A stretch of 64,000 bases of DNA. Origin: Onthophagus taurus (taxonomy: Eukaryota > Arthropoda > Insecta > Coleoptera > Scarabaeidae). This document shows, piece after piece, positions 36,921 to 59,874 of this stretch. The translations under genes and the position numbers were made by a program. The notes under the pieces were generated by a model. It did no database searches and was not told the DNA's origin. It saw only the letters and a program-made list of their open reading frames with translations. Every line of letters starts with the position of its first letter. The stretch's first letter is position 1. Location: contig NW_027248940.1 of assembly GCF_036711975.1 (NCBI RefSeq), forward strand, positions 4,960,001 to 5,024,000. The letters run 5' to 3'.

Positions 36921-38785
36921 CGTATTTATATCTTATCTTAAACTTCAATCTTTTGTCTTCAATTTAAGATCTATATCGTTTCATTACTCTCAAAAATAGA
37001 GTTGATATCATTCTTTAAATATTTGAAATCTTTATTTAACCTAAATTTAACAACTCCTTTTTAAATCAAGTTTCTCGCCAAATTTTTATAATCACACCTC
37101 TACGTATTTATATCTTATCTTAAACTTCAATCTCTTATCTTTAATTTAAGATATAAATCGTTTGATTACTTTCAAAAATAGAGTTGATATGGTTTTTGTA
37201 ATATTTGAGATCTTTATTTAACCTGAATTTAACAACTCCTTTTTAAATCAAATTTGTCGGCAAATTTTTATTATCACACCCCTACGTATTTAGATCTTAT
37301 TTTAAACTTCAATCTTTTATCTTTAATTTAAGATCTAAATTGTTTTAATACCTTCAAAAATTCAGTTGATATGGTTTTTTAAATATTTGGGATCTTTATT
37401 TAACCTACATTTAACAATTCCTTTTTAAACCAAAATTTTCGTCTAATTTTTATAATCACACCTCTACGTATTTATATCTTATCTTAAACTTCAATCATTT
37501 ATCTTTAATTTAAGATCTAAATCGTTTCATTACTTTCAAAATTAGAGTTGATATAATTTTTTAAATATTTGAGATCTTTATTTAACCATTTAACAACACC
37601 TTTTTAAATCAAAATTTTCGCCTAATTTTTATAATCACACCTTAACGTATTTATATCTTATCTTAATCTTCAATCATTTATCTTCAATTTAAGATCTAAA
37701 TCGTTTCATTACTATCAAAAATAGAGTTGATATAATTTTTTAAATATTTGAGATCTTTATTTAACCTAAATTTAACAACTCCTTCTTAAATCAAATTTGT
37801 CGGAAAATTTTTATTATTACACCTCAACGTATTTATATCTTATCTTAAATTTCAATCATTTATCTTCAATTTAAGGTCTAAATCGTTTCATTACTCTCAA
37901 AAATAGAGTTGATATGATTTTTTAAATATTCGAGATCTTTATTTAACCTAAATTTAACAACTCCTTTTTAAATCAAATTTGTCGGCAAATTTTTATCATC
38001 ACACCTCTACGTATTTATATCTTATCTTAAACTTGAATCTTTTATCTTCAATTTAAGATATAAATTGTTTCATTACTCTCAAAAATAGAGTTGAAATGAT
38101 TTTTTAAATATTCGAGATCTTTATTTAACCTAAATTTAACAACTCCTTTTTAAATCAAGTTTCTCGCTTAATTTTTATAATCACACCTCTACGTATTTAT
38201 ATCTTATCTTAAACTTCAATCATTTATCTTTAATTTAAGATCCTAATTGTTTCATTACTCTCAAAAATAGAGTTGATATTATTTTTTAAATATTTGAGAT
38301 CTTAAATTAACCTAAATTGAACAACCCCTTTTTAAACTAAATTTTTATAATCATACCTTAACGTATTTATATGTTATCTCAAATTTCAATCATTTATCTT
38401 CAACTTAAGATATAAATCGTTTGATTACTCTCAAAAATAGAGTTGATATGATTTTTTAAATATTTGAGATCTTTATTTAACCTAAATTTACCATCTCCTT
38501 TTTAAACCAAAATTTTCGCCTAATTTTTATAATCACACCTCTACGTATTGATATCTTATCTTAAACTTCAATCATTTATCTTCAATTTAAGATATAAATT
38601 GTCTCATTACTCATAAAAATAGAATTGATATGATTTTTTTAAATGTTTGAGATGTTTATTTAACATCTCCTTTTTAAACTAAATTTTTATAATCACATCT
38701 CAACGTATTTATATCTTATCTTAAAGTTCAATGTTTTATTCTCAATTTAAGATATAAATCGTTTCATTATTCTCAGAAATAGAGT
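36921..38785 (+). repeat. Satellite A: tandem array of a 182-bp unit, about 10-11 copies
   Basis: The landmark cgtatttatatcttatctta recurs at 36921, 37103, 37285, 37467, 37646, 37828, 38010, 38192, 38362, 38544 and 38704: seven spacings of 182 bp, plus 179, 170 and 160 from small deletions. Each unit carries tttaatttaagatctaaat, tagagttgatatgatttttt and gagatctttatttaacct in order. Copies differ by about 5-15% by eye. The array abuts a truncated mariner TIR on the left and stops about 190 bp before the FBXO21 start codon. Confidence 0.93.
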
Positions 38786-38978: not shown

Positions 38979-40848
38979 ATGTTAGATAATCTCCCTTTAG
39001 AAGTCCTTCAAATCATAATAGAACAAAAATCCTTGGATATTCGGGATTTAATTAACCTCTCCTCAACCTGTTCTTATTTAAGAAGAATCATTTTAAGCAA
39101 CAACATCCTTTGGAAAAATCGGTACTTAGAGAAGTGGTCAAAAATAGATAAATCAGAAGAGATTGGGAATTACTATGAGGAAATTTGCCACCTTTATGTG
39201 ATACGCCAAAAAGTAGATGAAACATTAACAAGTTTCGCAACAAATTTCATGAATAAAGAACATTTATCAGACGCAGATTTCAAACCATTTCTCGAATTAA
39301 TTAATTCCCGAAACACGAATAGATACTACATAGAAGATTATTTATGGATTATCCTAAATGATCACTCCAAAATCAACACTTATGATGTGGTTCCTTTAAA
39401 AACTCGGGGAAACCTGACCTTTAAATATTACAGCTTAATAAGTTTACGTTATTTAAGACATATTTATTTGGAAAAAGCTTGGAAAGCTTTTAACTTATTA
39501 AAAGAAGAGGATCAATTGTTAGAAATAGGCGCAACCATGTTAACGCAATGGTGTAGACCCGAATGTGATATTAAAATTAAAAAGATACGAAATCAATTCG
39601 ATAAAATAGCCGAGGAGGTTAAAGAATATTTAAAAATTAATTCCCCGAATCATCCTTTAATTCAAACGAATCAGGAGGATTTAAATTTATGGCGGGATAA
39701 AATCATTTATAAGAATCAATTTTCCTCGGCGGATTGCAAGGTTATTTTGGATGTTATGCAAAAAGTTATTTGCCAAAGGATGGATTTTTGTGGGAATCAA
39801 GACGATTATTTCAACATTAATAATTCGTTTATAACCGAGGTGCTTGAATCAAAACGAGGGCTTCCAATTACTTTATCAATACTTTATGAAGGTGTTGCAA
39901 GGAGGTTGGGGGTTAATTTAGAACCGGTTAATACCCCCTCACACTTTTTATTGAGATTTATTCAACATGACACTTTAAATGGGGAGATGTATTACGTTGA
40001 CGTTTATAATCGGGGTTTGATGAGTTTTGCTGGAAATTCTAATTATGACGTGAACCCAATAACGAGGGCTTCAACTAAAATTGTTTGTTTTAATCAATTT
40101 TATTAAGTATTTATTAAAGATTTTTTTGTTTTAGGTGATTGAACGCATGGTGAATAACCTCCAAGTCGCTTTAAGAGAGCGATTACAACCCCCAGATAAT
40201 GGAGTCCAATTAATGCGTTCAATTTTGGAGTTAAACCACATCCTGCATCCTTACGATTTAGGAGTAACCCTCTCTTTAACGCATTACTACATGAAATTCG
40301 GGATTGATACAACCCCATTAAAAGAAATTTTACAAACTAGGAATTACCTCAATCGAGATTTAGCCAACGATATTTTAGATTTATTATCAATCAATGAATA
40401 CGCCTCAAAAAATCGAAATTCTTTACCCCACTTTTTAAATGAGTGTAATGGACGAAATCGAATACAAAATTATCGACACCCTGATGTCAAATTTGCTATT
40501 GGGATGGTTATGAGACACAAATTGTTTAATTATACTTGCGTTATTTATGGTTGGGATCATATTTGTGCTGAAAGTGATGCGTGGAAACGGGAGATGAATG
40601 TGGATCAGTTGCAGTTTGGGGCGAGACAGCCGTTTTATCAGGTTTTGGTGGAGGATGGGACTAAAAGATACGCGGCGCAGGAGAATTTGATTTTTAGCGG
40701 GGTTAAAAATGGGTTGGATAAGAATCCGGAGGTCGGGAGGTTTTTTACTCATTTCTTTAGAGACCAATATGTGCCAAATTGCGTGAAAAATGAGGAATAT
40801 CCGAATGATGTTGAAGTGAGGATGAAATTTCATTTAGAAGTTTCGTAA
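38979..40848 (+). CDS. FBXO21: F-box only protein 21-like, two exons, about 605 aa
   Basis: Exon 1 (38979-40082) opens with an F-box (LDNLPLEVLQIIIE...LRRIILSNNILWKNRY, residues 1-50). Near residues 285-330 is the SirB1/transglutaminase-like region (KRGLPITLSILYEGVARRLG then HFLLRF). Exon 2 (40135-40848) starts VIERMVNNL and includes the YccV/HspQ hemimethylated-DNA-binding-type domain (HPDVKFAIGMVMRHK, CVIYGWD, GARQPFYQVLVEDGTKRYAA). F-box, SirB1-like and YccV domains in this order are diagnostic of FBXO21, the substrate receptor of an SCF ubiquitin ligase; total length is close to the mammalian ~628 aa. I place the 52-bp intron at 40083-40134 (phase 0); without splicing the frame stops at 40104-40106. 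AATAAA lies at 40912-40917. Confidence 0.92.
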
Positions 40849-41396
40849 ATGACGACTAAAAAATGTTAATGTTAATAATTGGTGAAAAGTTGGAACGTTT
40901 TTCTAAGATCAAATAAAAATATATTCTATAAATTGATATTTTTATTATTTATGAAGTTAAAGCTTTAAATCTATAACATTAAGACATGCAGAATTGGATA
41001 TAAAATGTCATAACAATGATGTTTATGCAAAATAAGAAATTATTTCTCTGTAAGAAAAATTAAAATAACTCATATCTTCCTTATTTTTAAAAGATGAAAC
41101 GCACACACATGCAAATATTGTACAAAATCATTGCTTGGGTCAATGTTAGGTAGTATTTTAATAAACAATTCAATAATAAAAATATTTATAATGTATTATG
41201 TACAATAAAAAACATTATGAATAGTAAAAAATAATACAAACATTGTATTAACAAAATAAACTTATAATTCCTAACAATAAAAATATGTAATAAGAGTTTT
41301 ACGTTTTTAAAAAATCATCCAAGGTAATGTCTTCTGTGTCTGAATGCTTAGTAGCATCTTCAGTTACAGCAGCAAAATTTTGTAGTAAGTCAACTT
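40849..41396. other. FBXO21 3' flank, first satellite B fragment and Tigger 3' end
   Basis: 40849-41060 is the 3' UTR and flank that is repeated after the second FBXO21 copy (50776-50884 and 52788-52860). At 41066 a satellite B fragment (tcttccttatttttaaaagatg) begins. From about 41309 the minus strand encodes the C-terminus of the Tigger transposase. Confidence 0.6.
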
Positions 41397-44300
41397 ACTA
41401 CAGTAAAATATGTTTACCCAGTAAACAAGAAACATCTGTGAAACATTTCAATTTTAACGTACAGTGAATTAAATGAAACATTTTAAAACTACGTTTCATA
41501 TACGTGACAGATACGATTTTTACGAAACGTATCAAAAGATAGGTATGAAATACATTTCAGTAGGAATATTTATGAAATATCATCAAAATATGCATCAGAA
41601 ACATTTTATTTGAAACATTTCTTTACAAATGTGTCTGAAACATATCTGGAATATCTTCATCGCGGTGGCGCGGTCAGCGTCTTGTCACGTCTTGTTCATT
41701 GTCTGTTTTGTTCAGTTCGAATCGTTCGAATATTGGTTTAGAATGGCACAAGTTTTGTATAAGTTTTTTTTAAATATCACCTCTAGATTTAGTTAATGAA
41801 AATACGGCTAATAAACAAGATTTAAAGAAACAAACCTACGTAAAGAATTTTTTGTAATTCGCTACGGTAATGGAAGCTATAACAGTACTCAAACGGGTGC
41901 TGTAATGAGACTCTTTAAAGCATCCGATGTTGTAATGAGATTTTAGTAACATTTTATGGAACCAGTTCAAGTTGGTGACATTGGGTCATTAATTTTTCTA
42001 GTTGTCAATGTGACAATTTTTGTCTATGGATGTTTAAACACGTTCTTAGCATCGAATACAAGGTCCACAATGATGAGGACATTGAACACTGAGCAAGTTT
42101 CTTATTTTGGGAGGTGTACATGAAACATTTTTTTTCAGGTGAATACATTTTGTGTTTTGACAGTTTCTAATTGTCAATTCAAATTTCTATTTTCAAGTGT
42201 TACGGTGTTACCAACTGCTGCATACCTATTTCCCTACATTGTCAAAATTTATTTTATTTTTGTTAAAAAAAAGGGATAAAAACGCGAATTACAAAAAATA
42301 GCATAAAAAACACGTTTCATAAGACTTAAAGCACTCATTCATTAAAAAACTCGTGGCTTTGCCACTCGTTTTTCAATTTGAATTCGTGCACTTCAAAAGT
42401 GTCTTACGAAACTTGTTTTTTAATATACTATTTTGTAATTCGCTACGGTAATGGAAGGTATAACAGTACTCAAACGGGTGCTGTAATGAGACTCTTTACA
42501 GCATCCGATGCTGTAATGAGATTTTAGTAACATTTTATGGAACCAGTTCAAGTTGGTGACATTGGGTCATTAATTTTTCTAGTTGTCAATGTGACAATTT
42601 TTGTCTATGGATAAAATCTGGTTTAAACACGTTCTTAGCATCAAATACAAGGTCCACAATGATGAGGACATGGACTCTGAGCAATTTCTCTTATTTTGGG
42701 AGGTGTACATCAAACGTTTTTTTCAGGTGAATATATTTTGTGTTTTGACAGTTTCTAATTGTCAATTCAAAGTTTCTATTTTCAAGTGTTCCGGTGTTAC
42801 CAACTGCTACATACCTGTTTCCCTACATTGCCAGAATTTACTTTATTTTTGTTAAAAAAAAAGTATAAAAACGCGAATTACAAAAAATAGCATAAAAAAC
42901 ACGTTTCATAAGACTTAAAGCACTCATTCATTAAAAGACTCGTGGCTTCGCCACTCGTTTTTCAACTTGAATTCGTGCATTTCAAGCGTGTCTTACGACA
43001 CTTTTTTAATATACTATTACGTTTTCCGTAGGTCAAATCATAACCTATAAGGTTTGATCACGATTCCCGCTAAATTTGGTTGTTTTTCTCCTGCAATCAT
43101 AGAAAATTATGTAGTTATATAGTTTTACGTTCGTGTGATGTGAGATAAGATGGAAAGAAAAGAATTAAAATTGAATATCTCTAGGAGACATTTTCGTAGA
43201 TTGGTAAACGTGTTTACATTTCAGAAATAATTCAAAACCGTTAATGAAACATTTTAATAATGTACCGTAATTGTCACCTGTATGTTGCAGAAACATTAGC
43301 AGTTTCAGACACGTTTCAACTATCTTTCAGAAATATGTCGATGAAACATTTCATGTTCCAATAATGTGTATCAGAAATGTTTCTGAAACGCAAATTTGTT
43401 TACTGGGTCATCGCATGTAATTTCTTCTTCATCTTGATTTAAAATTATGTCTGCAATGTCGTTTACCTCCATCCCTTCAAAATGTACCTCTTCTGCATAT
43501 TGAACCAAATCATTGACAATCCCTTCAAGATCATCAGTGCCTGCTCCTTCGGCATCTTTAGTAGATTCTGGCCACAGTTTTCTCCAAACCCCTTTTAAAC
43601 AACTGTGTTTGACTTCTATCCAAGATTCTCCAACATTTTCGACTGCTTTTAAAATATTAAACTGCTTCCATATTACTTTGATTGAGATTTCATCATTGAG
43701 ATGTTGAAAAAGTTGTTTGAACGTCCTACGTATAGATAATAAGCTTTAAAATTAGAAATGACACCTTGATCCATGGGCTGTATAAGAGCCGTTGTGTTAG
43801 GGGGAAGAAAAATAAATTTTATGTTTTCGCAGATTTCGTCTAGATGAGGAGGATGGCTGGGAGCGTTGTCTAGTAGAATTAAAATTTTAAAATCAAGATT
43901 TTCTTTCAAGCAATGGTTTTTAAGTTCGGGCACAGCAATATCGCTTACCCACTCTCGGAACAGAGTTGCTATCATCCATCATTTTTTGTTCCATCTCCAA
44001 TGAACTGGTAATGAATTTCTTTGATGATTCTTCATTGCCTTTGGATTTTGAGTAGTATTAATTAACAAAGGCTTGAGTCGGAGATCACCTGCTGCATTAG
44101 CCCCGGGAAGAAGAGTTATTCGGTCTTTATTTGCCTTAAAGCCAGGTGCATGTTTTTCTTGTTGTGAAATGTAAGTTCTCTTTGGTAGTCTTTTCTGCAT
44201 CTCCACTCCATGCTTCTCCCTTCAATGCTACATTGTGCAGTTTAGCTCTTGATTAAAATTTTTGAAACCAACCTCGACTTGCGTGAAAAGTTCGTCTTTA

Positions 44301-44480
44301 TGAACATGTTCAGGTTTTGACTTTAATTCTTCAAATATGGATAAAGCTTTTTCTTGTATGTTGGTCCTACTTACTGGTACTTTACGTTGATTTTGTTCCT
44401 CTATCCACGTAGAGAGGAGAGATTCCATTAAGAAGAAATATTGTATTCTTAGTTTTCTTTACGATTTTTCCACTCATTTT
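41309..44480 (-). pseudogene. Tigger/jerky-like (CENP-B/DDE) transposase, split and broken
   Basis: Read from about 44480 downward: a remnant start MSGKIVKKTK with the CENP-B HTH largely gone, then STWIEEQNQRKVPVSRTNIQEKAL (44400-44330, second HTH), a frame-broken core, and the DDE block LILLDNAPSHPPHLDEIC...FLPPNTTALIQPMDQGVISNFKAYYL (43890-43735). The acidic C-terminus runs to 43409 and, after an insertion (41397-43408), continues in frame with LLQNFAAVTEDATKHSD to TLDDFLKT and a stop near 41309. In this family the enzyme moves Tigger elements at TA sites. Stops and frameshifts at 44206-44228, 43975-43979 and about 43680 disable it. The right TIR ends cgagacccaagtg at about 44825; the left TIR was not found. 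Confidence 0.85.
41397..43408. mobile_element. Inverted-repeat element with ~580-bp internal tandem duplication
   Basis: The left end cccagtaaacaagaaacat and the right end atgtttctg...gtttactggg are inverted, bounding about 2 kb inserted in the Tigger C-terminal coding region. Inside, 41848-42430 and 42431-43018 are direct repeats starting ttttgtaattcgctacggta, including ggaaccagttcaagttggtg and a short actcgtggctttgccactcg hairpin. Motifs such as gaaacatttc occur many times near both ends. The left junction contains the palindrome gtagtaagtcaacttactac. The TSD is unclear and no transposase is present. Confidence 0.65.
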
Positions 44481-44829
44481 GATCTATAAATAAGAAATAC
44501 GTACACGTGAAACATAATCTATATGAACGCGAGATTACATAATTGTTCAATGTAATTCTGACTCCAATAATCATCAATAATATATTAACTTACCTCAATG
44601 TGTCTTGGCAATTTGACAGTTTCACTATCGCTAAGACCGCCGTTTCAAGAAGGACTACCGGTATCATGCATGAAAACGAATGCGCACGATTCCACGCAGT
44701 GAATGCGAGTGAATCCTCGTTTTATTTCATTTGTAGCGACGCATATCGAATCATAACAACGCAACTCTCAGATACAGTCCTATATCTATGACGCAAATTG
44801 AATCGACGCAAATCGAGACCCAAGTGTAC

Positions 44830-45515
44830 CTACAAACTCTGCTTATATGCTGCAGTATGCAGATGATAAAGCGTTAATCACTCACGATATGACCTTAAAA
44901 AAGCATTAAATAAACTTTAAACATTGACTGTGGGTGTAGAAAAATGATTCAAAATTTGGCGAATTCACACAAACTCTCAGAAATCACAACTGCTTCTACC
45001 TTTTCAACGGACTTCTGAATATTCTCTGACCATCAGATTAGCGAACATCTTGGTCCAACTAAAGAAGACATGCAAATATTTAGGAAGAACCATGGGATAA
45101 CTTGTTGGATAACGGAAATAAATTGAAAAACATTCAAGTGGCAGAGACATCAGCTATTAGAACCATCGCCATATTAAGAAATCCTAGAAATCCTCTGTGC
45201 AATCCCTCTATTAAATCCCTATATGCGAAAACACAAATTATTCCAATCATTGAACGCTTATCCGTCCTAGCACCAAAGTCATACAAGAAAATGTCCTCAA
45301 ACCTTTTCCCTCTCTTCCAACGCTCTGATTTTGACACCATTTTTAAAACCATCAACGAATTTAAACAATGATCAGCGATCTTTACATGGGCAGGAGGGCC
45401 ACGGTCAGCAGCCCGTTTCAGTACTATGGCTAATGAGTGTTATATAATTTATTGTATGATATGTTTCAATATTTAATTGTACATTTACTGAAATAAATAT
45501 CTTCTCTCTCTCTCT
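44830..45515 (+). pseudogene. Jockey-like RT 3' fragment
   Basis: Scattered frames read LQYADDKALITHD (RT catalytic motif C, about 44855-44885), later NILVQLKKTCKYLGRTM-like sequence and a C-terminal open piece (45102-45371) ILRNPRNPLCNPSIKSLYAK...SKSYKKMSS that is typical of the thumb end of Jockey-type RTs. A tctctctctctc tail follows at about 45505. The fragment is heavily mutated and sits at the edge of a satellite B unit. Confidence 0.65.
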
Positions 45516-45519
45516 TATT

Positions 45520-45690
45520 TTCCTTATTTTTAAAAGATGGAATGCGTTCTATATCTCATATTGAAGCTCAAACATTCTAATTTATGATAAGATTTAGAAA
45601 AGGCAAGGCTGGATTGTAAAAATTTTGCGAAATGTAATGATAAACAAGAAATTGCCAGAATTATGCAAGAACCTTTAGAAAACTTAAAAA
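45520..45690. repeat. Satellite B unit
   Basis: It begins attttccttatttttaaaagatgg, continues through caaacattctaatttatgat and aagaaattgccagaattatg, and ends in an A/T-rich run. These landmarks recur in order at 46560, 52890, 53066, 53255, 53880, 54005, 54190, 57836, 57990, 59410, 59470 and 59650, with a period of about 175-190 bp where units are adjacent. Confidence 0.85.
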
Positions 45691-46555
45691 TTTTTTAAAA
45701 TCGTATCTTTCAATTCGTATCTTCGACTAATTTTAAACGCATTAAAGCTACTCCAACGTTCATCATCGTAAACAATCAAAGTACCACTACGATCATGATT
45801 TTCTGCTCGCGAAACATAAGATCCGTGATCAACCCAACCCACGTTGCAGTCATTCCCGATCTGTGCTCCGATCACTTGGGTATTCTGGAACACTTGCAGT
45901 TAACGATTCCCATTTCAAGACCAAGCCAGCCCAAATAAAGTCGGAAAATACTACAATTTCCCATTTCCAAAGTTCATCGTAAGGTTAATTAAGGAAAAGA
46001 GACGAATATACCGCGTCTTTAGAATATCTGTGGCACCAGACTTAAAAAGGAAATTTAATGTACTGAACAAATATATTCAAGCCTTAATCAAACAATTCAA
46101 AACCGAAAAGTATATTGAAACCTGTGATAATATCAATAAGTCAAAAGGCAAAAGATACTGGGAAGAAGTTCGAAAATTATCCATATATCAAAAGTCTCCT
46201 GAAACCCACAAACTTATTGACCCCTCAGATTACCTTACGGGGATTACCTTCAGCGTGTGTTTTCATTCTCGGAAGATGCTTCTTTCTGCTCCGTCATCAA
46301 AGCGGGAATAGACGACTGGTATAAATCTGCTTTCACCACCCAGGCCGACACTTCCGAAGATGCTGTGATCCACGAAGACACTAAAGTAAACTAGATTCAA
46401 GAATCAAGATTCTAGCAAAGACTTTCCCGGGCAGTACGGTCGATAGCTCTTTTAGGCCAACTTTTTTTTTATATACACATATTATTTTTCATATATTATA
46501 TTTATTTTTTAGGTTGTAATTATTATTTGTTAGCGTGAATAAATTTTGTTTTCTC
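45690..46555 (+). pseudogene. Jockey-like endonuclease C-terminus and linker fragment
   Basis: The plus strand reads THVAVIPDLCSDHLGILEHLQL (end of an APE endonuclease, with the SDH catalytic His, about 45838-45900), PISRPSQPK, then the linker MAPDLKRKFNVLNKYIQALI...GKRYWEEVRKLSIYQKSPE (46030-46210), and then jumps to a 3' UTR with a ttctctcttctc tail near 46545. The RT is deleted. The family appears to be the same as at 44830-45515, given the similar tails. Confidence 0.68.
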
Positions 46556-46559
46556 TCTT

Positions 46560-46717
46560 CTCATATTTTCCTTATTTTGAAAAGATAGAACGCGTTCAAT
46601 ATCACAAATTGAAGCTCAAACATTGGAAATTATGATAAGATTTAGAAAAGGCAGGGTTTGATTATAAAAATTTTGAGAAATATAACTATAAATAAGAAAT
46701 TGCTAAATTATGTGAGA
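46560..46717. repeat. Satellite B unit joined to FBXO21 copy 2
   Basis: The unit runs tattttccttattttgaaaag...aaattgctaaattatgtgaga and then changes abruptly at 46717-46719 into FBXO21 exon 1 sequence (gggggttaatttagaacc). The third FBXO21 scrap joins after the same monomer position (aaattatgcgaga, 55920-55932). Confidence 0.85.
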
Positions 46718-47661
46718 TAGGGGGTTAATTTAGAACCGGTTAATACCCTCTTTACACTCTTTATTGAAATTTGTTCAACGTGACACTTTAAATGGGGAGA
46801 TGTATTACGTTGACGTTTATAATCGGGGTTTGATGAGTTTTGCTGGAAATTCTAATTACGATGTAAACCCAATAACGAGGGCTTCAACTAAAATTGTTTG
46901 TTTTAATCAATTTTATTAAGTATTTATTAAAAATTTTTTTGTTTTAGGTGATTGAACGCATGGTGAATAACCTCCAAGTCGCTTTAAGAGAGCGATTACA
47001 ACCCCCAGATAATGGAGTCCAATTAATGCGTTCAATTTTGGAGTTAAACCACATCCTGCATCCTTACGATTTAGGAGTAACCCTCTCTTTAACGCATTAC
47101 TACATGAAATTCGGGATTGATACAACCCCATTAAAAGAAATTTTACAAACTAGGAATTACCTCAATCGAGATTTAGCCAACGATATTTTAGATTTATTAT
47201 CAATCAATGAATACGCCTCAAAAAATCGAAATTCTTTACCCCACTTTTTAAATGAGTGTAATGGACGAAATCGAATACAAAGTTATCGACACCCTGATGT
47301 CAAATTTGCTATTGGGATGGTTATGAGACACAAATTGTTTAATTATACTTGCGTTATTTATGGTTGGGATCATATTTGTGCTGAAAGTGATGCGTGGAAG
47401 CGGGAGATGAATGTGGATCAGTTGCAATTTGGGGCGAGACAGCCGTTTTATCAGGTTTTGGTGGAGGATGGGACTAAAAGATACGCGGCGCAGGAGAATT
47501 TGATTTTTAGCGGGGTTAAAAATGGGTTGGATAAGAATCCCGAGGTGGGGAGGTTTTTTACTCATTTCTTTAGAGACCAATATGCGCCAAATTGCGTGGA
47601 AGATGAGGAATTTCCGAATGATGTTGAAGTGAGAATGAAATTTCATTTAAAAGTTTCGTAA
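46718..47661 (+). pseudogene. FBXO21 copy 2, 5'-truncated partial duplication
   Basis: It starts within exon 1 at GVNLEPVNT (homologous to 39908 in copy 1) and keeps the end of exon 1, a similar intron and all of exon 2 (46948-47661, 237 residues open). Exon 2 differs from copy 1 at only a few residues (for example IQNYRHP to IQSYRHP and VPNCVKNEEYPN to APNCVEDEEFPN). The exon 1 piece has a one-base frameshift (accctctttacactc versus accccctcacac). The F-box and half the SirB1-like region are absent and no promoter sequence was copied. Expression as a YccV-domain-only protein cannot be excluded. Confidence 0.88.
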
Positions 47662-47739
47662 ATGAAGAGTACAAAATGTTGATGTTAATTTTATTATAAA
47701 AATTGTGACATAATTCCCTCCTTTATTTCTAAAACTCCA

Positions 47740-47778
47740 ATTATAACGACGTTTCGGGGAATGTTCCCATCATCAGGT
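47740..47778 (-). ncRNA. Hammerhead-ribozyme-like motif in PLE-2 (best match)
   Basis: On the minus strand: cctgatgatgggaaca, then ttccccgaaacgtcg. This has the box CUGAUGA, a 5-6 bp stem II (UGGGAA/UUCCCC) closed by a short loop, box GAAAC, and a tiny stem III-like acgtcgt, the layout of minimal hammerheads reported in Penelope-like elements. The other arm (50654-50690, plus strand) has a degenerate copy (ccggatgatggg...cccgaaatgtcg). Stem I could not be closed convincingly by eye. Confidence 0.5.
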
Positions 47779-48073
47779 TAATAGTACTCTTATCTAAAGA
47801 AACACGAATTACTAAATTAAAAATAACATAATTACTATTAGAAACATGAAAAACAATCTCCATACACTTAAATCACAAAAGATTTTTTTGTTTAGTTTAT
47901 AGAATATGATTCTTACCTAAGACTATTAATCAATTTTTATCATTAATTGTTTCTTAAATTTATTCCGATACATCTTATCATGCTTACGAATCAAGTCTAA
48001 GAGAAATTTTCATACAAGGTCAGATAACAATTGTATTCCTTTGTCCGAAACCTGTTTTCTCTCCCATATTCTA

Positions 48074-49072
48074 TTATATCACTAATTTATTTAAAATATC
48101 CGCATAATGTGCCCCTATTCTTTCTACATCGGTTTTAAAATTAACTGTTTTATTATTATTTTTTGTTATGAAGATTGACTCTAAATTTTTCCTTATTTGT
48201 ATGTTTTTATTTGTTGTTAATATCTTAGGATTATCAAAATCAAACTTATGATTTAAAGTTACAGAATGTTGGCACAAAGCTGTTTTGTTTTGAATTTTTA
48301 TTTGTTTAGTATCGTATTTGTGTTGTTGTATTCGTTTTTTAAGATGTTGTTTTGATTCCCCTATATATATTTTATTACAATCAATGCAATTTAATTGGTA
48401 TATAGTATCTACTTTATCTAAAGTTTTGATTTTGTCCTTCATGTTTGATATTAAGGTGCCGATTTTGTTGTTATTGTATTTAGCGAATTTTATTTCGGAT
48501 ATTTCATACTTTTTAAAGATGTTCGTTATTTTATTTGTTAGTGCTGGTATATATTTGATTTTACAAAATTCTTTATTATGAGTACTTTTGCTATTAATTG
48601 CTTGAGTACTAACATCGTTTTCCTGACAAATCTGCTCTATATTACTCTGTCTAAGTATGAATTGTGTAATTAAGGATTGTCTAAAAATTGGCTTATCCTT
48701 TTTGTTCATATCTCCTTTCCCATTTTCTGCATCTGCATTCCCAGCTTTTTGATGATTATCTTGTGGGGTTGTGTTATTTGTTGTGACTTCCAGTCCTTGT
48801 ATATTATTTAGTATCGTAAACCATGAGTTATTGATCAAGTGCTTGGGATAAAAATTATTTAACAAAATATAAATTTTTTGTTTTATTTCTTTCAAAAAGG
48901 GTTTATCTGTCAATTTTATCGCTCTATATATATAATTGTTCATCGTGTTTATAATTTGCGACTTTGGGTGATTACTATGGTAATTCAATAGTCTATCACT
49001 GCTTTTATCTTTTTTATACCATTTCGTCCTTATTATGTTATTGTCATTATCGATGATAATTGACATATCCAA
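48074..49072 (-). pseudogene. PLE-2 post-palm region plus GIY-YIG endonuclease
   Basis: The 332-residue frame starts LDMSIIIDNDNNIIRTKWYKK (the strand after the RT catalytic motif), runs through a basic linker and ends with a GIY-YIG nuclease (VDTIYQLNCIDCNKIYIGES, then KKRIQQHKYDT, residues about 225-265) and a C-terminal TDVERIGAHYADILNKLVI. In Penelope-like elements this nuclease nicks target DNA. The frame is open but separated from its RT by the MITE at 49083-49474, so the full protein cannot be made. Confidence 0.88.
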
Positions 49073-49082
49073 AAAATGTATT

Positions 49083-49474
49083 TATCTACAACTATTGAAT
49101 TATCTATTCGTTATACAATTGATTTTTGACGGGTAATGACACTCATTACCCATGACAGACAAAGTGTTGAATAATGAGGCCATTATTCCACACTTCTGAC
49201 ACTGCCTACTAATCAAAAAATAAAATATTAACAGAAATGACAGCTTTCTTATATTGAGGTTATGTCTGAAATGTCTATCAAGTTTATTTTTTTTTCGTTT
49301 TTTTGATTTTTTTTTCAAAATTAAATAGTTGTAGATAAAGTATAGTATTCAACTTGCGTATAATGGATGTTACCCACTCAGATTACAACACTCGCTCGCT
49401 TCGCTCGCTCGTGTTGCAACTTCTTCTTCGTGGGTAACAGCCGCCATTATACGCTTGTTGAATAATATACTATT
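49083..49474 (+). repeat. MITE-like repeat, copy 2, inside PLE-2 RT
   Basis: It matches 611-980 in order and has the same terminal fold. Copy 2 carries the loop caacactcgctcgcttcgct followed by cgctcgtgttg (49388-49418) where copy 1 has attttgaaatttc. Its edges fall exactly between RT and thumb coding sequences. Confidence 0.75.
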
Positions 49475-50117
49475 GTGATTGTTTCGGTATTTCCACCGTG
49501 AATTTCAATCTATCATGAAAATCATTAAAAACATCTAACAATTGGGAATATTGTCCTTTGGGCAAGATAATCAATAGATCATCTATATACTTCGTTATCA
49601 ACAAAGGTTTTATTGGTGTTTTATTCAACTGTGTGTCTAATAAATGATTTAAAATTATCCCGCTTAAATTTACACTTAAACTCGACCCCATTGGTAATCC
49701 AAAGATTTGCCTATATGTTTCATTATATGTGAAGTAATTATTAAAAGTGCATAACTTTATGCCCTCAATAAATAATCTTTTGTTTTTAATCAGGGTGTAT
49801 TCTTCAATATGTTGCCAATTTTGTTCCACCAATTCGATCATTTTATGCAATGGTATATTAGTGAACAACGATTGTACGTCAAAACTTACTATATCAATGT
49901 CATTTAAATTTTCTAAGTTTAACGATTTTATTTTCTTCTTTAATTCCCACGCACTTTTGACGTCATATTCATTTAATGAATTTAAATAATTTAATGATTT
50001 ATTTAAGAACTTTGCTAATTGATTGGTAGGTCCATTAATATTATTTATTATAGGTCTCAAAGGTTTATCATCTTTATGTATTTTGAGTAGTCCATGAATC
50101 CTAGGGGTTGTATAATA
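49475..50117 (-). pseudogene. PLE-2 reverse transcriptase core
   Basis: The reading enters as PRIHGLLKIHKDDKPLRPIINNINGPTNQLAKFL at about 50100, then DIDIVSFDVQSLFTNIPL (motif A), FGLPMGSSLSVNLSGIILNHL (motif B) and LLITKYIDDLLIILPK (catalytic motif C, near 49590). The palm is complete and open down to 49480, where the MITE interrupts KFTVEIPKQS. The N-terminal third of the usual PLE protein is absent because the inverted arm joins at 50117. Confidence 0.88.
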
Positions 50118-50154
50118 CGATACTAAACAAATAAAAATTCAAAACAAAACAGCT

Positions 50155-50358
50155 TTGTGCCAACATTCTGTAACTTTAAATCATAAGTTTGATTTCGATA
50201 ATCCTAAGATATTAACAACAAATAAAAACATAGAAATAAGGAAAAATTTAGAGTCAATCTTCATAACAAAAAATAATAATAAAACAGTTAATTTTAAAAC
50301 CGATGTAGGAAGAATAGGGGCACATTATGCGGATATTTTAAATAAATTAGTGATATAA
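50155..50358 (+). pseudogene. PLE-2 C-terminal fragment in inverted arm
   Basis: A 67-residue open piece reads CQHSVTLNHKFDFDNPKIL...GAHYADILNKLVI, almost the same as the last residues of 48074-49072 but on the opposite strand. It lies downstream of the GIY-YIG core, so it has no catalytic part. It is a marker of the head-to-head arrangement rather than a gene. Confidence 0.85.
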
Positions 50359-50884
50359 TAGAATATGGGAGAGAAAACAGGTTTCGGACAAAGGAATACA
50401 ATTGTTATCTGACCTTGTATGAAAATTTCTCTTAGACTTGATTCGTAAGCATGATAAGATGTATCGGAATAAATTTAAGAAACTATTAATGATAAAAATT
50501 GATGAATAGTCTTAGGTAAGAATCATATTCTATAAACTAAACAAAAAAATCTTTTGTGATTTAAGTGTATGGAGATTGTTTTTCATGTTTCTAATAGTAA
50601 TTATGTTATTTTTAATTTAGTAATTCGTGTTTCTTTAGATAAGAGTATTATTAACCGGATGATGGGAACATTTCCCGAAATGTCGTTATAATTGGAGTTT
50701 TAGAAATAAAGGAGGGAATGATGTCACAATTTTTATAATAAAATATACCAAAGCCTCCATAAACTAAAAAATATAGTTGATGTTAATAATTGGTGAAAAG
50801 TTGCAACGTTTTTCTAAGATCAAATAAAAATATATTCTATAAATTGATATTTTTATTATTTATGAAATTAAGTCTTCAAATATA

Positions 50885-52787
50885 CAGGGAGTCTTAGCGA
50901 GATCGGTCATTAGACGTTTCTGGGGTTCTGGCCAAAATAAAAATTTGAGAATTCAGACTTAAGTATTATTAATTACGATCTCTTCGACGAAAATATTTTC
51001 AGATTTCTTACACTTCCGGTTATACCGGAAGTCGCCACCTACTTTATTTTTTTAAATGGAACACCCTGTATATTTTTACATATTTGGATTTGTCTGTTTT
51101 CAAGGTTTATAAATAACTTTACTTTTTGTAATTTGATTCGGCCGTTCACGAGTTATTCGAATTTTTCTAGAAAAATCTGCTCCAGTGGACATTTGTTCAA
51201 AAAATCATAGAACACTGGTTTTTTTGAGATATCAATTTAGGATTCAGAACATGCTTAAACAACATTATGGAGTATGTTTTGGTGCCGAGAACGGCTGTCT
51301 AGAACGTTTGGTCACTTTACTATGGCACGTTAATTTTTCGAAATTTGGAAATACCATAACTTCATTTTTTTAAATGGCACCCCCTATATTTTATTACTTA
51401 GTCGTCTTCGGTATCTCATTCTACATCTTTTATATCCCATATATCCCATACCTAACATTAATAGTTTGGGAGATAATTAGGGTTTTTTGAAAAATGCACA
51501 CATATCATATGGATATTTAGCATAGTGTGCCATGAAAAACAAGCCTTCTCAATGAGTTCTTGTCAAAGACTCACTTGTTTACGCCACTTGATGCATGTGA
51601 GCTAATAATTATCTGTTAGGTCCCTTAATATTAGTACTGAAAAGAGTTAAAATCGATAACAATAACGAAAGTAATATTTACACAAATCAAGATATTTTTA
51701 ATTTATTTTTTATGTATGAAAAGCGCGACAATGTTCGTAGTATGATTCCCAGATCTTCTTTGGCAGCTCGAATTGAGTTGTTGGGACTGGGCTCGAAATA
51801 AGCCAAGGTATTCATCTCTTCCGTTGCATTATCTAATACATTTTTTGGTCAGTTTAACACGTGATTAATTCGTCCAAAATGCAAAAAATTTGCTTCTATT
51901 CTTCTAAATTTACCTTTTGTCGTCGGAGGTAAATGTGGATAATTTTCATTAAACATTTTGCAAGTTCTACTAAGAACTTTGTCGCACTTTTCGTGCACAA
52001 AAAATAAATTATGGATTTCTTCATTTGTATAAACATTATTTACGTTATTAACATACATTTTAACTAGTTTTAGACTCACAAGCATCAAACAACGTAAATC
52101 AGACTTTGACGTTTGCCAATAAGTCATTAAACATTTGTTTTCCATGGCATACTAGGTTAATATCGATATGATATGTGAGCATTTTTCAAAAAACCCTAAT
52201 TATTTTTCAAACTATTAATGTCAGGCATAGGACATATGCAGTACAAAAGATGTAAAATGAGACGCCGAAGACGACCAAGTACTAAAATGTGGGGGATGCC
52301 ATTTAAAAAAATTAAGTTATGGTGCTTCCAAATTTCGAAAAGTTAATGTGTCATAGTAAAGTGACCAAACGATCTAGACAGCCGTTCTCGGCACCAAAAC
52401 ATACTCCATAATGTTGTTTCATGTTCTGAATCCTAAATTGATATCTCAAAAAAAACAGTGTTCTATGATTTTTTGAACAAATGTCCGCTGGAGCAGATTT
52501 TTCTAGAAAAATTCTAATAACTCGTGAACGGCCGAATCAAATTGCAAAAAGTAAAGTTATTTATAAACCTTCAAAACAGACAAATAAAAATATGTAAAAA
52601 TATACAGGGTGTTCCATTTAAAAAAATAAAGTAGGTGGCGACTTTCGGTATAACCGGAGTGCTAGAAATCTGAAAATATTTTAGGCGAAGAGAACGTAAT
52701 TGATAATACTTAAGTCTGAATTCTCAAATTTTTATTTTGGCCAGAACCCCAGAAACGTCTAATGACCGGTCTCGCTGAGACATCGTG
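50885..52787 (-). mobile_element. Mariner-like element with long TIRs, in FBXO21 copy 2 flank
   Basis: The ends cagggagtcttagcgagatc and gaccggtctcgctgagacat...gtg lie between TA dinucleotides; TIRs match inward over several hundred bp (50885-51570 against 52150-52787). Copy 1 of the host flank (40971-40990, tctataacattaag) shows the unoccupied site with a single TA. It contains only the HTH part of a transposase (51849-52145), so it is internally deleted. Confidence 0.85.
51849..52145 (-). pseudogene. Mariner transposase HTH fragment (DUF4817-like), copy 2
   Basis: A 98-residue frame includes VYTNEEIHNLFFVHEKCDKV, FNENYPHLPPTTKGKFRRIE and LHFGRINHVLN. It matches 35218-35460 and represents the N-terminal DNA-binding helix-turn-helix of an insect mariner transposase without its catalytic domain. 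The upstream MENKCLMTYWQTSK part is specific to this copy and may be non-coding. Confidence 0.7.
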
Positions 52788-52879
52788 TATAACATTAAGA
52801 CATGCAGAGTTGGATATAAAATGTCATAACAATGATGTTTATGCAAAATAAGAAATTATTCCTCTCTAAAAAAAATTTA

Positions 52880-53279
52880 AATAAACCATATTTTCCTTAT
52901 TTTTAAAAGATGGAACAGCTTTTATATCTCAATTGAACCTCAAACATTCTAATTTAACATAGGATTAAGAAAAGGCAGGGTTTGATTGTAAAAATGTTGA
53001 GATATATAATGATAAACAAGAAATTTCCAAATTATGCGAGAACTTGTAGAAAACTTAAAAAATCTTATCTTCCTTATTTTTAAAAGATGAAACGCGTTTT
53101 ATATCTCAAATTGAACCTCAAACATTCTAATTTGTGATAAGATTTAGAAAAGGCAGGGTTTGATTGTAAAAGTTTTGAAAAATATAATGATAAACCAGAA
53201 ATTGCCAAATTTTGCGCAAACTTGTAGAAAACTTAATAATTTAAAAAAAATCATATCTTCATTATTTTTAAAAGATGCA
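52880..53279. repeat. Satellite B, 2.3 adjacent units
   Basis: The landmark ccttatttttaaaagatg occurs at 52895, 53072 and (as cattatttttaaaagatg) 53260, giving periods of 177 and 188 bp. Between them run caaacattctaattt, ggcagggtttgattgta and gataaac-agaaattgccaaat. The third unit is cut at 53279 by an insertion. Confidence 0.88.
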
Positions 53280-53870
53280 ACCTTCTTCAGAGACTGGTTC
53301 AAAGTCACATCGAACCAGTTTCTATTCTAATTCTAATAACGGAATTGTCTGTTTTCTTCGACGTTTTAATTTGTGATATAGTATGTTTATTTTAATTTCG
53401 AATTTTACACGCTTTAAATTCTACGCACATGCGTATTTAGTTACTTTTTATAGATATCAACATAAAAACATGTTTTTTACATTTTTCGATCCAGTTGTTA
53501 AGACATTTTCGACACGTTTACCATGACCGATTGTGCACATTGTTTTATCTCTAAAATCTACCCATTTGTGATTTTTAAACGGAATTTCGCCATTAGTTTA
53601 ACAATATAATAGTTTCCGCTGTTCAAAAATTTTATTTTCAACTTGTAAGTACATTACTCTAAGTATCATTTTATTTAGATTTAATTTACCTTAATTCTAT
53701 AATCTAACATGTTTAAATTATCAAAAATTCAACTTTTGTAGCTATTCTGAAGATGCCTGCTAGGACAGGCGAAACATGTTAATAAAGAGAGGTATTATTA
53801 TTATATAATACAAGAAATTTTGTACTAACCAGTAAAAGTGCAAAACTCACAAAAAACCTTCGTTACCTCT
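53280..53870 (+). mobile_element. ~590-bp insertion with hammerhead-like motif near its 3' end
   Basis: It splits a satellite B unit (resuming at about 53875 with aaattctaatttatgata). Near the 3' end, 53746-53782 reads ctgaagat, GCCTG-ctagga-CAGGC, then gaaacatgtt and an aataaagag tail: CUGANGA box, perfect 5-bp stem II, GAAA box. There is no ORF. It looks like a short non-autonomous retroelement related to Penelope-like terminal repeats or to retrozymes. This is inference. Confidence 0.55.
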
Positions 53871-54285
53871 AAATTAAATTCTAATTTATGATAAAATTTA
53901 GAAAAGGCAGGGTTTGATAGTAAAAATTTTGAGAAATATAATGATAAACAACAAATTGCCAAATTATGCGAGAACTTGTAAGAAAATTAAAAATTAAAAA
54001 AGATCATATTTTCCTTATTTTTTAAAGATGGAACCCGCTCTTTATCTCAAATTAAAGCTCAAACATTCTAATTTATAATAAGATTTATAAAAGGCAGGGT
54101 TTGATCGTAACAATTTTGAGAAATATAATGATAAACAAGAAATTGCCAAATTCTACGTGAAATGGTAGAAAACTTAAAAATTTAAAAGAATTATATCTCC
54201 TTATTTTTACAAGATGGAACGCGTTCTTGTCTCAAATTAAACCTCAAACATTCTAATTTATGATAAGATTTAAAAAAGGCAGATG
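53871..54285. repeat. Satellite B, about two units
   Basis: Landmark ccttatt at 54013 and 54199 (186 bp apart), each followed by caaacattctaattta and aaggcag. It is cut at about 54285 by a Ty3/gypsy fragment. Confidence 0.85.
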
Positions 54286-54539
54286 TTGGAATGTTTAACA
54301 GTTATTTTATTTTCACAACATAATTACTAAATAATACGTGTTGTCTGAATAAATTTATTTAAAGGAAAAACATATCATGATATTCTGGATTCAGGGAATG
54401 GATTTTGTGGGCATGAGGCTACAAGTACTCCCCCTTCCAAGAAGAAATAAATTTAACCATAAAATGTAAATTAACTAATTGTAAATATTTTAATGTTAAA
54501 AACATATTCTTACAGATTTATTTGTAATTTATTACAACC

Positions 54540-55905
54540 AATTTCCAATATTAACTGACAATTGCTTGTTATCTTTTAAAATAATAAAGTTTTTTTGAAA
54601 GCGTTTGATAACTTTAAAAGGGCCTTCAAACCTTGGTGCAAAGGAAGATTTAAAATGATTTAGTTTTAAGAAAAAAAAGTCTGAAACAAATAAATCTTTA
54701 TGAATGAAAGCTTTAATTTTGAATGGAATGTAGTAGGTACTGGTTTTAAACTTGAAAACGTTTCTTTAAGACTAACTAGAATGGTTGTGATTAGATTCTT
54801 AATTATCATCATATATGTTAAGGTATATTAATATAAATGATAGTCGTACTTAATGATGAAATAATTTTATTTTTATTTTCTGGTTTCGATCTGTTTTGGC
54901 TTATGTTGTCATCTTAACCCATAATAATGTTACTTCCCTTCTCTCTTCTTTTCTTTTTCTCCTATCATTTGTGTTTATTTTACAATATTTCTTGTCTTTA
55001 TTTAACAAATTTTGTGTGTAATCTAACTTATTATTATAAACCTTCACCATTTATTTTTAGGCGTAATTTGTGCCTAAAAGTTTAATAATAGGAGAAAAAA
55101 AGAAGAGAGAAGAAAAGTAAAATTATTATGGTTTTTAAAAAACGTAAATCGCAATAATGTGGTTTCCTGAAGATAACAATATAAGCCGAAACCGGTCGAA
55201 ACCAAAAATAAAAATAAAATTATTTCATCGTTAAGTACGACTATCATTTATATTAATATAACTTAACTAGAAGTGGTTCCACTTCTAAATGGTCTTGTAA
55301 AGTAACAATAAATTCTCCAGGTAGGCGGAGGGGTTAACCAACTCTGCGAGGGAACAACCTATATCTTCTTTAAGTGAAGATCTAAGGCCCAATAGTACAA
55401 TTGGAGGTCATTGTTCCCCCTGTAGTCGTTTCCTCTGGCAGCAATGGCAGTTTTAAAGGTTCTATGGAACCTTCCTAATATGCCATTACTTTGGGGATGA
55501 AAGGCTGAAGTGTGGATCTGATCAGATCCTAGCAATCTATTGAAATAATTAATACAATTAATTTATATTTTTCTTCGTTTACATCTATTGGCGAAATAAT
55601 CGGGATTTGAATTGCCTTCCTTGATTATGTGTGATAGTGTGTGGTATACCAAATCTTGAGAAATGTTGATTTAGTAGTGTTGCGGCTATAGTAGATGTCG
55701 TAGTGTCAGGTATTGGGTACGCTTCGGGCCATCTAGTGAAGCGATCTATGGCTGTTTCCAAAAAAAAACAGCCTAATGAAGGTGTAAAGGGACCTGTTAT
55801 ATCTATGTGTATTATATGTTAGAATCTACTAGTAGGTAGATTAAGCTTCTGGGGTGGAGATTTTGTGTATCTTTAGATTTTAGTTTTCTGGCAAGTTACG
55901 CAAGT
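54540..55905 (-). pseudogene. Ty3/gypsy integrase, degenerate
   Basis: Frame-broken minus-strand pieces show the end of the zinc-binding domain (CVTCQKTK near 55885), the core HIDITGPFTPSLG (first catalytic Asp, about 55800), TAIDRFTRWPEAYPIPD, HFSRFGIPHTIT followed by a DQG-like site reading NQG (second Asp replaced), and FHPQSNGILGRFHRTFKTAIA, where the catalytic Glu is Gly. The C-terminal DNA-binding part (FEGPFKVIKRFQKNFIILK) lies at about 54630-54570, beyond the inserted repeat. With catalytic residues lost it cannot integrate DNA. Confidence 0.8.
54812..55268. mobile_element. Inverted-repeat insertion with hammerhead-like motif in gypsy remnant
   Basis: The arm ggtatattaatataaatgat...gtacttaatgatgaaat on the left is the mirror of atttcatcgttaagtacg...atcatttatattaatata on the right. 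At 55166-55195 (plus) the right arm reads cctgaagataaca...gccgaaaccggt, with a degraded mirror at about 54880-54916. The centre is AT-rich without ORF. The arrangement mimics the head-to-head arms of the Penelope-like elements in miniature. Confidence 0.6.
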
Positions 55906-55925
55906 TTTACATTGCCAAATTATGC

Positions 55926-56071
55926 GAGATTGCAAATTACACTTTTTATTGAAATTTATTCAACATGACACTTTAAATGGGGAGATGTGTTACGTTGACG
56001 TTTGAATCGGGGTTTGCTGAGTATTGCTGGAAATTCGAATTACGATGTGAACCCCTTAACGAGAGCATCAG
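55926..56071 (+). pseudogene. FBXO21 third scrap (end of exon 1)
   Basis: From cactttttattgaaattt to accccttaacgagagcatca it matches 39942-40072 of copy 1 (the HFLLRFIQHD...NPITRAS region) with several changes, including a one-base loss that breaks the frame (gacgtttgaatcgg). The left side joins satellite B after aattatgcgagattgc, the same monomer position as copy 2. The right side is replaced by a Penelope-like element at 56072. Confidence 0.85.
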
Positions 56072-57620: not shown

Positions 57621-57835
57621 GTGAACACGAAGGCCTCCTCCCGCCTCACACCGGACGCGACGCAATTAGTTAATAATTAGCTTTAATTGATTATTAATTA
57701 GTTTTCCGACTTATATATTGTTCCCGATTTTCGATTTTGTCACTTCGAACCATGAAAACATGACATCCAACACGTCACACCTTTTCTTAAAAGACGCACG
57801 GCAAAACCCGAAAGTTTCTAGTTTTAGTTAGTTAG
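57621..57835. other. Spacer, no gene seen
   Basis: It starts with a GC-rich piece (cctcctcccgcctcacaccg) and becomes AT-rich (attagttaataattag). It may be the distal part of PLE-3. No conserved frame found. Confidence 0.3.
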
Positions 57836-58100
57836 ATGGAACGCGTTCTATATCTCAAATTGAAGCTCAAACATTTTAATTTATGATAAGATTTAGAACA
57901 GGCAGGGTTTGATTGTAAAAATTGTGGGAAATATAATGATAAATAAGAAATTGCAAAATTATGCGAGAACTTGTAGAAAAATTTAAAAAATCATATCTTC
58001 CTTATTTTTAAAAGATGGAATGCGCTCTTTATCTCAAATTGAAGCACACACATTCTAATTTAGAAAAAGCAGGGTTGGATTGTCCAAATTTTGAGAAATA
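57836..58100. repeat. Satellite B, about 1.5 units
   Basis: gatggaacgcgttctatatc at 57836, then a new unit from catatcttccttatttttaa (57990). It is interrupted at 58100 by a Tc1 element inside gagaaata|taatgataaac and continues after it at 59400. Confidence 0.85.
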
Positions 58101-59399
58101 CACTGTTGGAAATAATTCACGAGCACACCCTATATAATCTGAACGCGTGAAGATAAATCCATAATATTTGCGGAGCACAAAGCTTTACTGTAGACGAGTT
58201 TATTCAGCGAGTTTCGAGTTGTTCCGTCGCGGCATTGTTGACTGAGCCGCCCTTCCAAGTGGAACATTCCGTCGCTATGGAGAGCGAAGTGGATGGAAAA
58301 TACCGGTCGTTTTTAGTGTGGTGTGATGGACTACATTGTTATCGTACTCTGTGCGCAATGGATGGGCGATCGCGTTACTTAAGCGAGTTTGAGCGAGGAA
58401 TGTTTGTGGGTATGCACATTGAGGGTGTATCGTTCCGTGAAATTGCGCGTTGTCTCGAGCGGTCGTTATCGGCAGTGCAACGGGCATAGCGAGAATGGTC
58501 TGAGGTAGGACATAGGTACCTACAGCCGCGGCCGGGATGGCCCTCCGCGACCCCAGCACACGAGGATCGCACTCTTGTGCTTAGCGCTTTAGCGTCGTGT
58601 GCGTCCTCTTCAAGCCAACTTGGAGCTGTTTGACCACCGGCAGGGAAAGGCGCACTCACTACGCGAACTGTATGGCGGCGTTTGGTAGATAGTGGACTGC
58701 GCGCGCGTCGTGCGATACAGCGGATTCCAGTAACACCCGAGCACCACAGCATACGTCACGAGTGGGTCAACGCTAGGCATTAGTGGGTTGCCGAGTAGAG
58801 GGACATTTTGTTTTCCGACGAATCAAGATTCGAATTGAGCACCATAACGCAGACCAGTATAGCAGACCATAACGGGTCAACGATACGTAGATGAGGTGCA
58901 ACGGTCCGTAGTGCTTCCCTACGTTCGGCGGCGCCCAAGTCTGCTATACATGCACGACAACGTCCGAACGCACATCGGGCGTATTGTACAGACCTTTGTG
59001 GAAGAGCACCGTATACGAATGCTTCCTAGGCCAGCTCGTTTTCCGGATCTGAATCCAATCGAACATGTATGGGACATGACTGGTCGGAGACTTCTACGTT
59101 ATCCGGCCCCCTCGGCTAACGTTGAGGAGCTTTGGAGGCGAGTTGAGGTGGCATGGTTGGCCATCCATCTTGCTACAATACAGCGACTTATAGACTCCAT
59201 GCCACGTCGTGTAGCGATGGCACGCGAAGCTCACGGGGATACTCCCGCTATTGATGTTTCTCCTCCCAGCAAAGTTGTGCCGCTCTCCATGTGGGAGTAA
59301 GTTACACTACTTTAGTACTACTTCCATACCAAATTTTATTGCGCTAGACTCACGCGTTCTGATTATACAGGGTGTGCTCGTGAATTATTTCCAACAGTG
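58101..59399 (+). mobile_element. Tc1-type transposon, 1299 bp, in satellite B
   Basis: TIRs cactgttggaaataattcac (left) and gtgaattatttccaacagtg (right) lie between TA dinucleotides. The insertion point in the satellite monomer is exact, because intact monomers read gagaaatataatgataaac. The element is conspicuously GC-richer than its surroundings and has only a few lesions in its gene, which points to a comparatively recent arrival. Confidence 0.92.
58275..59300 (+). pseudogene. Tc1-family transposase with several stops
   Basis: The N-terminal HTH region reads LSEFERGMFVGMHIEGVSFREIARCLERS (58378-58465), the second helix region RRLVDSGLRARR (about 58680), the first catalytic block DILFSDESRFEL (58800-58840), then YMHDNVRTHIGRIVQTFVEE (58945-59010, second Asp) and PDLNPIEHVWDM (59045-59080, Glu): the DD34E arrangement of Tc1 transposases. 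A TAG at 58487, further TGA/TAG codons and at least one frameshift near 58870-58900 break it. The 3' part (58896-59300) is open for 134 residues. Confidence 0.85.
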
Positions 59400-59720
59400 T
59401 ATAATAACAAACAAGAAATTGCCAAATTATGCCAGAACTTATAGAAAAATAAAAGATTTTAAAAAACATATCTTCCTTATTTTTAAGTGATGGAACGCGT
59501 TCTATATTTCAAATTGAACCTCAAACATTCTAATTTATGATAAGATTTAGAAAAAGGCAGGGTTTGATTGTAACCATTTTGGGAAATGTAACGATAAACA
59601 AGAAATTGCCAAATTATGCGAGAACATATGGAAAAATTAAAAAAAATCATATGTTCATTATTTTTAAAAGATGGAACGCGTTCTATATCTCAAATTGAAG
59701 CTCAAACATTCTACGTTATT
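59400..59720. repeat. Satellite B, remaining units
   Basis: Continuation of the monomer interrupted at 58100, then cttccttatttttaagtgatgg (59470) and gttcattatttttaaaagatgg (59650). The array dies out after 59715. Confidence 0.85.
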
Positions 59721-59874
59721 ATAAGAATTGCTCAAAATGAAAATTAAAGTAAAATGTCCTGGACGGCGGACCGAACAGATCTCCTGTATGCCAATACATT
59801 TAGGCCAAAAACGTCGACCCCCAATCTATCGACTGTCCTTTCCATCCTCAATACCGGGGAGTTGCGATAAGCAC
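59721..59874. other. Spacer with GC-rich patch
   Basis: A piece reading ggacggcggaccgaacagat and gtcgacccccaatctatcga precedes the CR1 fragment. Unrecognised. Confidence 0.3.

Follow-up and report, generated by a model that had tools for sequence, protein, structure and literature searches.

In the dung beetle Onthophagus taurus, an FBXO21-like gene that looks functional from its sequence is followed by an array of a satellite of about 179 bp (satellite B) holding two partial copies of the gene, and the best explanation for these copies, which we regard as probable, is a single join between a satellite monomer and exon 1 of the gene, followed by further copying, decay and gene conversion. The locus belongs to bases 4960001-5024000 of contig NW_027248940.1 (C15), a stretch of 64,000 nucleotides that is called the window and numbered here from its first base. 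The genome comprises 290.8 Mb in 33 contigs, and the locus structure and all comparisons between copies come from this one assembly. The gene itself is referred to as copy 1 and its extra copies as copy 2 and fragment 3 (or copy 3), while a second satellite, A, is found upstream of the gene.

The gene, its partial copies and their joints

The features on which the argument depends are the following.
38979-40082, plus strand: exon 1 of the FBXO21-like gene, copy 1, intact, with F-box-like and Transglut_core2 domains (translation, Pfam, named nr protein)
40135-40848, plus strand: exon 2 of copy 1, with the YccV-like domain (translation, Pfam)
40849-41048, plus strand: 3' flank of copy 1, present in copy 2 too (alignment)
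41049-41102, plus strand: beginning of the downstream satellite B array, at consensus phase 1 (alignment)
46551-46717, plus strand: satellite B monomer that runs up to joint 2, ...GTGAGA (sequence read, monomer comparison)
46718-47689, plus strand: copy 2, homologous to 39906-40876 (alignment, translation)
50777-50881, plus strand: copy 2 continued, 3' flank, right limit approximate (alignment)
52788-52864, plus strand: end of the 3' flank of copy 2, running into satellite B as copy 1 does (alignment)
55911-55929, plus strand: satellite B remnant that leads up to joint 3, ...GCGAGA (19/19 bases match)
55930-56070, plus strand: fragment 3, with TTG (as 39906-39908), a 6-base filler, then homology to 39941-40073 (base-by-base reading)

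The gene (38979-40848) consists of two exons separated by a 52-base intron (40083-40134) and unites F-box, transglutaminase-like and YccV-like domains without any internal stop; their order (F-box-like, Transglut_core2, YccV-like) is that of FBXO21 and FBXO21-like proteins. Its product of 605 amino acids differs from the nr protein 'F-box only protein 21-like [Onthophagus taurus]' in a single residue, encoded at 40469, where copy 1 of this assembly has Asn and both the nr protein and copy 2 have Ser. Among the FBXO21-like proteins listed, at least three are diverged paralogues from O. taurus, including this one, P0002 (47% identical, known from the database listing) and P0003 (43% identical). 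The paralogue matching P0003 is situated about 306 kb downstream, at C15:5.307 Mb (locus L038), and is formed by two blocks with a short gap between them, resembling the layout of the copy 1 gene.

Alignment of 39902-40876 of copy 1 with 46714-47689 gave 97.1% identity. Further matches to copy 1 are found at 50763-50881 (92%) and 52788-52916 (93%); therefore copy 2 takes in the 3' flank and the start of the satellite, and as a whole corresponds to 39906-41048 and adjoining satellite, with two inserts breaking it up. That satellite B follows the gene and that the flank of copy 1 recurs after copy 2, both remarked in an earlier note on this DNA, is thus borne out. Copy 2 is frameshifted at its 5' end and carries a stop there, while its exon 2 is open and keeps the YccV-like domain (translation, Pfam); a database search with its 269-amino-acid frame gave no annotated protein at E <= 0.001 (0/213 candidates), a weak negative subject to word and length filters. 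Fragment 3 shows 90% identity over 55939-56070 and ends at 56070 inside exon 1, without exon 2. Exact 16-base words of 38979-41049 recur in the window only within copies 2 and 3, barring one intron word found again at 47878 and 50554.

At joint 2 the satellite reads AAATTATGTGAGA up to 46717, ending in GTGAGA, and is followed by TAGGGGGTTAATTT, the gene from 39906 being TTGGGGGTTAATTT. At joint 3 it reads AAATTATGCGAGA up to 55929, ending in GCGAGA, and is followed by TTG, the six other bases CAAATT and then ACACTTTTTATTG, homology with the gene resuming with ACACTTTTT at 39941. Read base by base, both joints fall at the same position of the satellite monomer, GAGA followed by T, as the earlier note had proposed; its closely spaced entry points into exon 1, given as 39908 and 39942, are refined to 39906 for joint 2 and to 39941 for fragment 3 after the filler. 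On the simplest reading, the ancestral joint was GAGA followed by TTGGGGG; copy 2 then changed a T to A, and copy 3 lost 32 bases (39909-39940), with six others in their place. Since copy 3 retains TTG (39906-39908), its entry 34 bp further in is probably the result of a deletion that came later, and a common joint is most likely ancestral to copies 2 and 3. The chance of two independent joints coinciding to this extent (the monomer base agreeing to within 1, the entries lying within 34 bp on a 1143-bp fragment, and the orientation being shared) we roughly estimate at 5e-4. Only GAG is common to exon and satellite at the joint; no satellite-like guide sequence better than shuffles was found in exon positions 39860-39960 (282/500 shuffles reach the score).

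One join or several

The earlier note left two possibilities, one event joining satellite to exon 1 followed by tandem amplification, or repeated exchange at the same monomer, of which the former is favoured by the TTG after GAGA in copy 3 and by three positions (39955, 40046 and 40049) at which copies 2 and 3 agree against copy 1. At 39955 copies 2 and 3 encode Lys, whereas Arg is encoded in copy 1, in the L038 paralogue and in seven of the eight other aligned FBXO21 proteins, the eighth, P0002, carrying Lys; on this comparison the Arg-to-Lys change is polarised as derived, which supports a shared joint. The shared bases at 40046 and 40049 are not polarised.

Several observations weigh against this view. 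An accidental match of the TTG has a probability of 1 in 64, and the differences between copies 2 and 3 (13/133), between copies 1 and 3 (12/132) and between copies 1 and 2 (7/133) are such that the sister relation of copies 2 and 3 is carried by a few sites and the joint, the first two distances being nearly equal. Copy 2 is the odd one out at 39946, 39960, 39967 and 40052, where copies 1 and 3 have the same base; the paralogue sides with copies 1 and 3 at 39946 and 39960, which therefore look like changes in copy 2. Further, the satellite before joint 3 (54185-54282) agrees with the joint-2 monomer at only 78/98 positions, less than the 120/133 of the gene fragments of copies 2 and 3 (Fisher p 0.035; binomial p 0.001 when tested against a fixed 120/133). 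Had satellite and gene moved as a block, the satellite should match more closely, unless one of the pieces was replaced through satellite exchange or the original monomer was lost to the insert at 54283-55910. Note that the joint-2 monomer is generally the most divergent one, 77-88% identical to the others. As to co-duplication of the satellite, on the right the flanks of copies 1 and 2 match into the satellite, and the pieces before joints 2 and 3 show only the agreement just given.

It is quite unlikely, in our judgement, that two independent exchanges took place at the same monomer position, owing to a preferred break phase, with copy 3 entering about 34 bp deeper. What speaks for such exchanges is that the joint phase, 176 of 179, is about four bases from phase 1, at which the array starts after the gene, and that 5' edges of arrays elsewhere are not uniform in phase. 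In an edge-phase test, 28 loci and the window yielded 26 5' and 30 3' edges (L058 and L059 gave none; L038 was left out). Clustering was found for all 5' edges (p 0.002) and for the 20 remaining after de-duplication (R 0.485, p 0.008, mean phase 7), and random cuts taken as a control were uniform at 5' edges (n=312, p 0.28) and slightly non-uniform at 3' edges (n=360, p 0.014). The joints, however, are 3' edges of the satellite, which are not significantly clustered (p 0.20 for all; p 0.23 for the 23 de-duplicated), and the TTG kept straight after GAGA in copy 3 and the derived change common to copies 2 and 3 speak against independent exchanges. Because the test was devised after a few edges had been inspected, the clustering is kept as a lead only. 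On its boldest reading, the superfamily to which satellites A and B belong might have a preferred boundary, between GAGAAC and TTGTAG or nearby, at which arrays would begin and the FBXO21 joint would have formed, a break-prone site driving the spread of arrays, the capture of neighbouring genes and ongoing exchange with the embedded copies; we consider this quite unlikely.

Another route would be insertion of a fragment into an existing array, for instance captured as filler during repair or re-integrated from a circle, instead of a tandem duplication. The satellite indeed ends at phase 176 on the left of copy 2 and resumes at phase 1 on its right, being almost continuous across it (about 5% by chance), but copy 1 has the same gene/satellite junction on its right (41048/41049), and filler arising elsewhere would need another exchange to acquire it, which makes this route very unlikely. 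The array start at 41049 was placed by alignment, and no satellite homology beyond that of shuffles was detected in 40940-41050 (309/500 shuffles reach the score). An assembly artefact or unmerged haplotypes would be an extremely unlikely explanation for copies which differ by about 3-10%, have unlike joints 2 and 3 and, in the case of copy 2, hold two inserts absent from copy 1.

A single join thus probably lies behind both copies. Its history would start from an FBXO21-like gene with a satellite B array directly behind it. A single illegitimate exchange, in the form of a tandem duplication, may have joined a monomer after GAGA to position 39906 in exon 1, through end joining or template switching with homology of at most a few bases, and would have doubled the 3' half of the gene together with the 3' flank and part of the satellite. 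If the duplication was a simple tandem one, a single new joint is expected and the right flank should otherwise be the same, and this is what the sequence shows. A second duplication, probably by unequal exchange, would have given fragment 3 from the same joint, after which the spare copies would have decayed and gathered inserts, and a later conversion tract (about 40053-40727) would have made the middle of copy 2 and the gene alike again. The order of these events, the deletion in copy 3, the mechanism of exchange and the origin of the low-divergence tract by conversion are what we infer from the structure, the shared joint bases and the patchy divergence.

Exchange between the gene and copy 2

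Of 1142 aligned sites, 33 distinguish copies 1 and 2, and these differences are distributed unevenly, a patchiness missed in the earlier note. The interval of lowest divergence, 40053-40727, contains four differences in 675 sites, compared with 29/467 outside it, and none of 300 permutations was as extreme. Synonymous and noncoding differences amount to 3/~180 inside the tract and 19/~254 outside (Fisher p 0.007) and nonsynonymous ones to 1/~495 and 10/~213 (p 4e-5), both p values being optimistic as the interval was chosen by a scan. A low-divergence tract that includes silent sites points to ectopic gene conversion between the gene and the satellite-embedded copy. Protein constraint on the middle of copy 2, which would leave the duplication history otherwise unchanged, appears unlikely: exon 2 of copy 2 is indeed fully open and keeps its YccV-like domain, but protein selection would not remove silent differences, which are also rarer inside the tract, and the 5' end of this copy is broken.

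Gene-pseudogene exchange of this kind, as it seems to have occurred here, could change the working gene; a possible example, and a candidate for a converted or polymorphic site, is Asn versus Ser at 40469.

Satellites, inserts and known systems

The remaining parts of the two satellite arrays are the following.
36921-38785, minus strand: satellite A array, period about 182 bp, orientation opposite to satellite B (TRF, BLAST, consensus mapping)
45513-45709, plus strand: satellite B monomer (alignment, monomer comparison)
52865-53281, plus strand: satellite B monomers following copy 2 (TRF, alignment)
53878-54282, plus strand: satellite B monomers ahead of the insert preceding joint 3 (monomer comparison)
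57835-58099, plus strand: resumption of the satellite B array (monomer comparison)
59409-59729, plus strand: last satellite B monomers detected in the array (monomer comparison)

Satellite A aligns with the minus strand of satellite B at 72% over 97 columns and 67% over 242 columns (BLAST), and at the level of these alignments the two are distant, inverted members of one superfamily of about 180 bp, present on many contigs; a search of the beetle's own genome gave at least 81 matches to satellite B, on six contigs, and at least 216 to satellite A. Two satellite B arrays in opposite orientation were found in L035 and L036 (C3:11.59 and 11.56 Mb), which have in common about 1.65 kb of the right flank of L036, in pieces 85-89% identical, either as an inverted duplication or as a repeated element carrying the satellite. 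In L037 (C5:7.42 Mb) oppositely oriented arrays face each other with about 1.6 kb between them. In L038, tandem repeats with periods of 188 and 174 (L038 4853-5793 and 6625-8308) occur about 300 bases past the last matched codon of the paralogue, the first bearing a weak resemblance to satellite B (73% over 82 columns), and satellite A-like fragments occur upstream of it (L038 1319-1459).

Two inserts interrupt copy 2.
47690-50776: first insert, with inverted arms and, on the minus strand, reverse transcriptase and GIY-YIG domains (BLAST inverted repeat; Pfam RVT_1 and GIY-YIG)
50882-52787: second insert, with inverted ends, foldback-like, limits approximate (both ends match one L035 repeat in opposite orientations)

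The first insert, which we take to be Penelope-like, has 631-bp inverted arms (47688-48318 and 50114-50744, BLAST) and is flanked by the 11-base direct repeat TTGATGTTAAT (47679-47689 and 50777-50787), likely its target-site duplication. At 36439-36910, abutting the outer end of satellite A, is a sequence from the repeat family to which the foldback-like insert belongs, and within satellite B another insert (58100-59400) has matching inverted ends and a DDE_3 domain (Pfam).

The suggestion of the earlier note that exon 2 of FBXO21 and its flank have become part of a higher-order satellite unit is not supported, as the own-genome search listed two extra copies only and fragment 3 lacks exon 2. 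Nor did the assembly-wide search it called for reveal many copies of a gene-bearing unit: a whole-genome DNA search with copy 2 found four places, all four scored, namely the three described here and a 70% match at C15:5308686-5309027, which is an FBXO21-like paralogue. A higher-order repeat was also rejected on the pairwise identities of 14 monomer pieces, which gave no such pattern in a comparison of low power, many pieces being partial. A gene turned into a satellite is not what the locus shows; rather, it preserves as a fossil how a gene that borders a satellite array may seed that array with partial copies of itself.

Partial tandem gene duplication with ectopic gene conversion leaves one novel joint, a truncated 5' end, a retained 3' flank and patchy divergence, and all four features are common to this locus, which is a fairly ordinary case of local duplication. 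It differs from ordinary partial tandem duplication in that the partner at the joint is a satellite monomer and the spare copies lie inside a satellite array. In macrosatellites such as D4Z4, gene exons are repeated with a repetitive flank, and a gene segment is likewise repeated here with such a flank, but in just two extra copies, diverged and broken, without a long array. Among the titles listed in a literature search, none was on this FBXO21 locus or on O. taurus satellites. For another beetle, Tribolium madens, inverted (dyad) satellite arrangements are described, in the form of large arrays in putative (peri)centromeric regions (PMC13081366). Both beetles have arrays of one satellite family in opposite orientations, whereas in O. 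taurus it is two short, diverged arrays that flank a gene.

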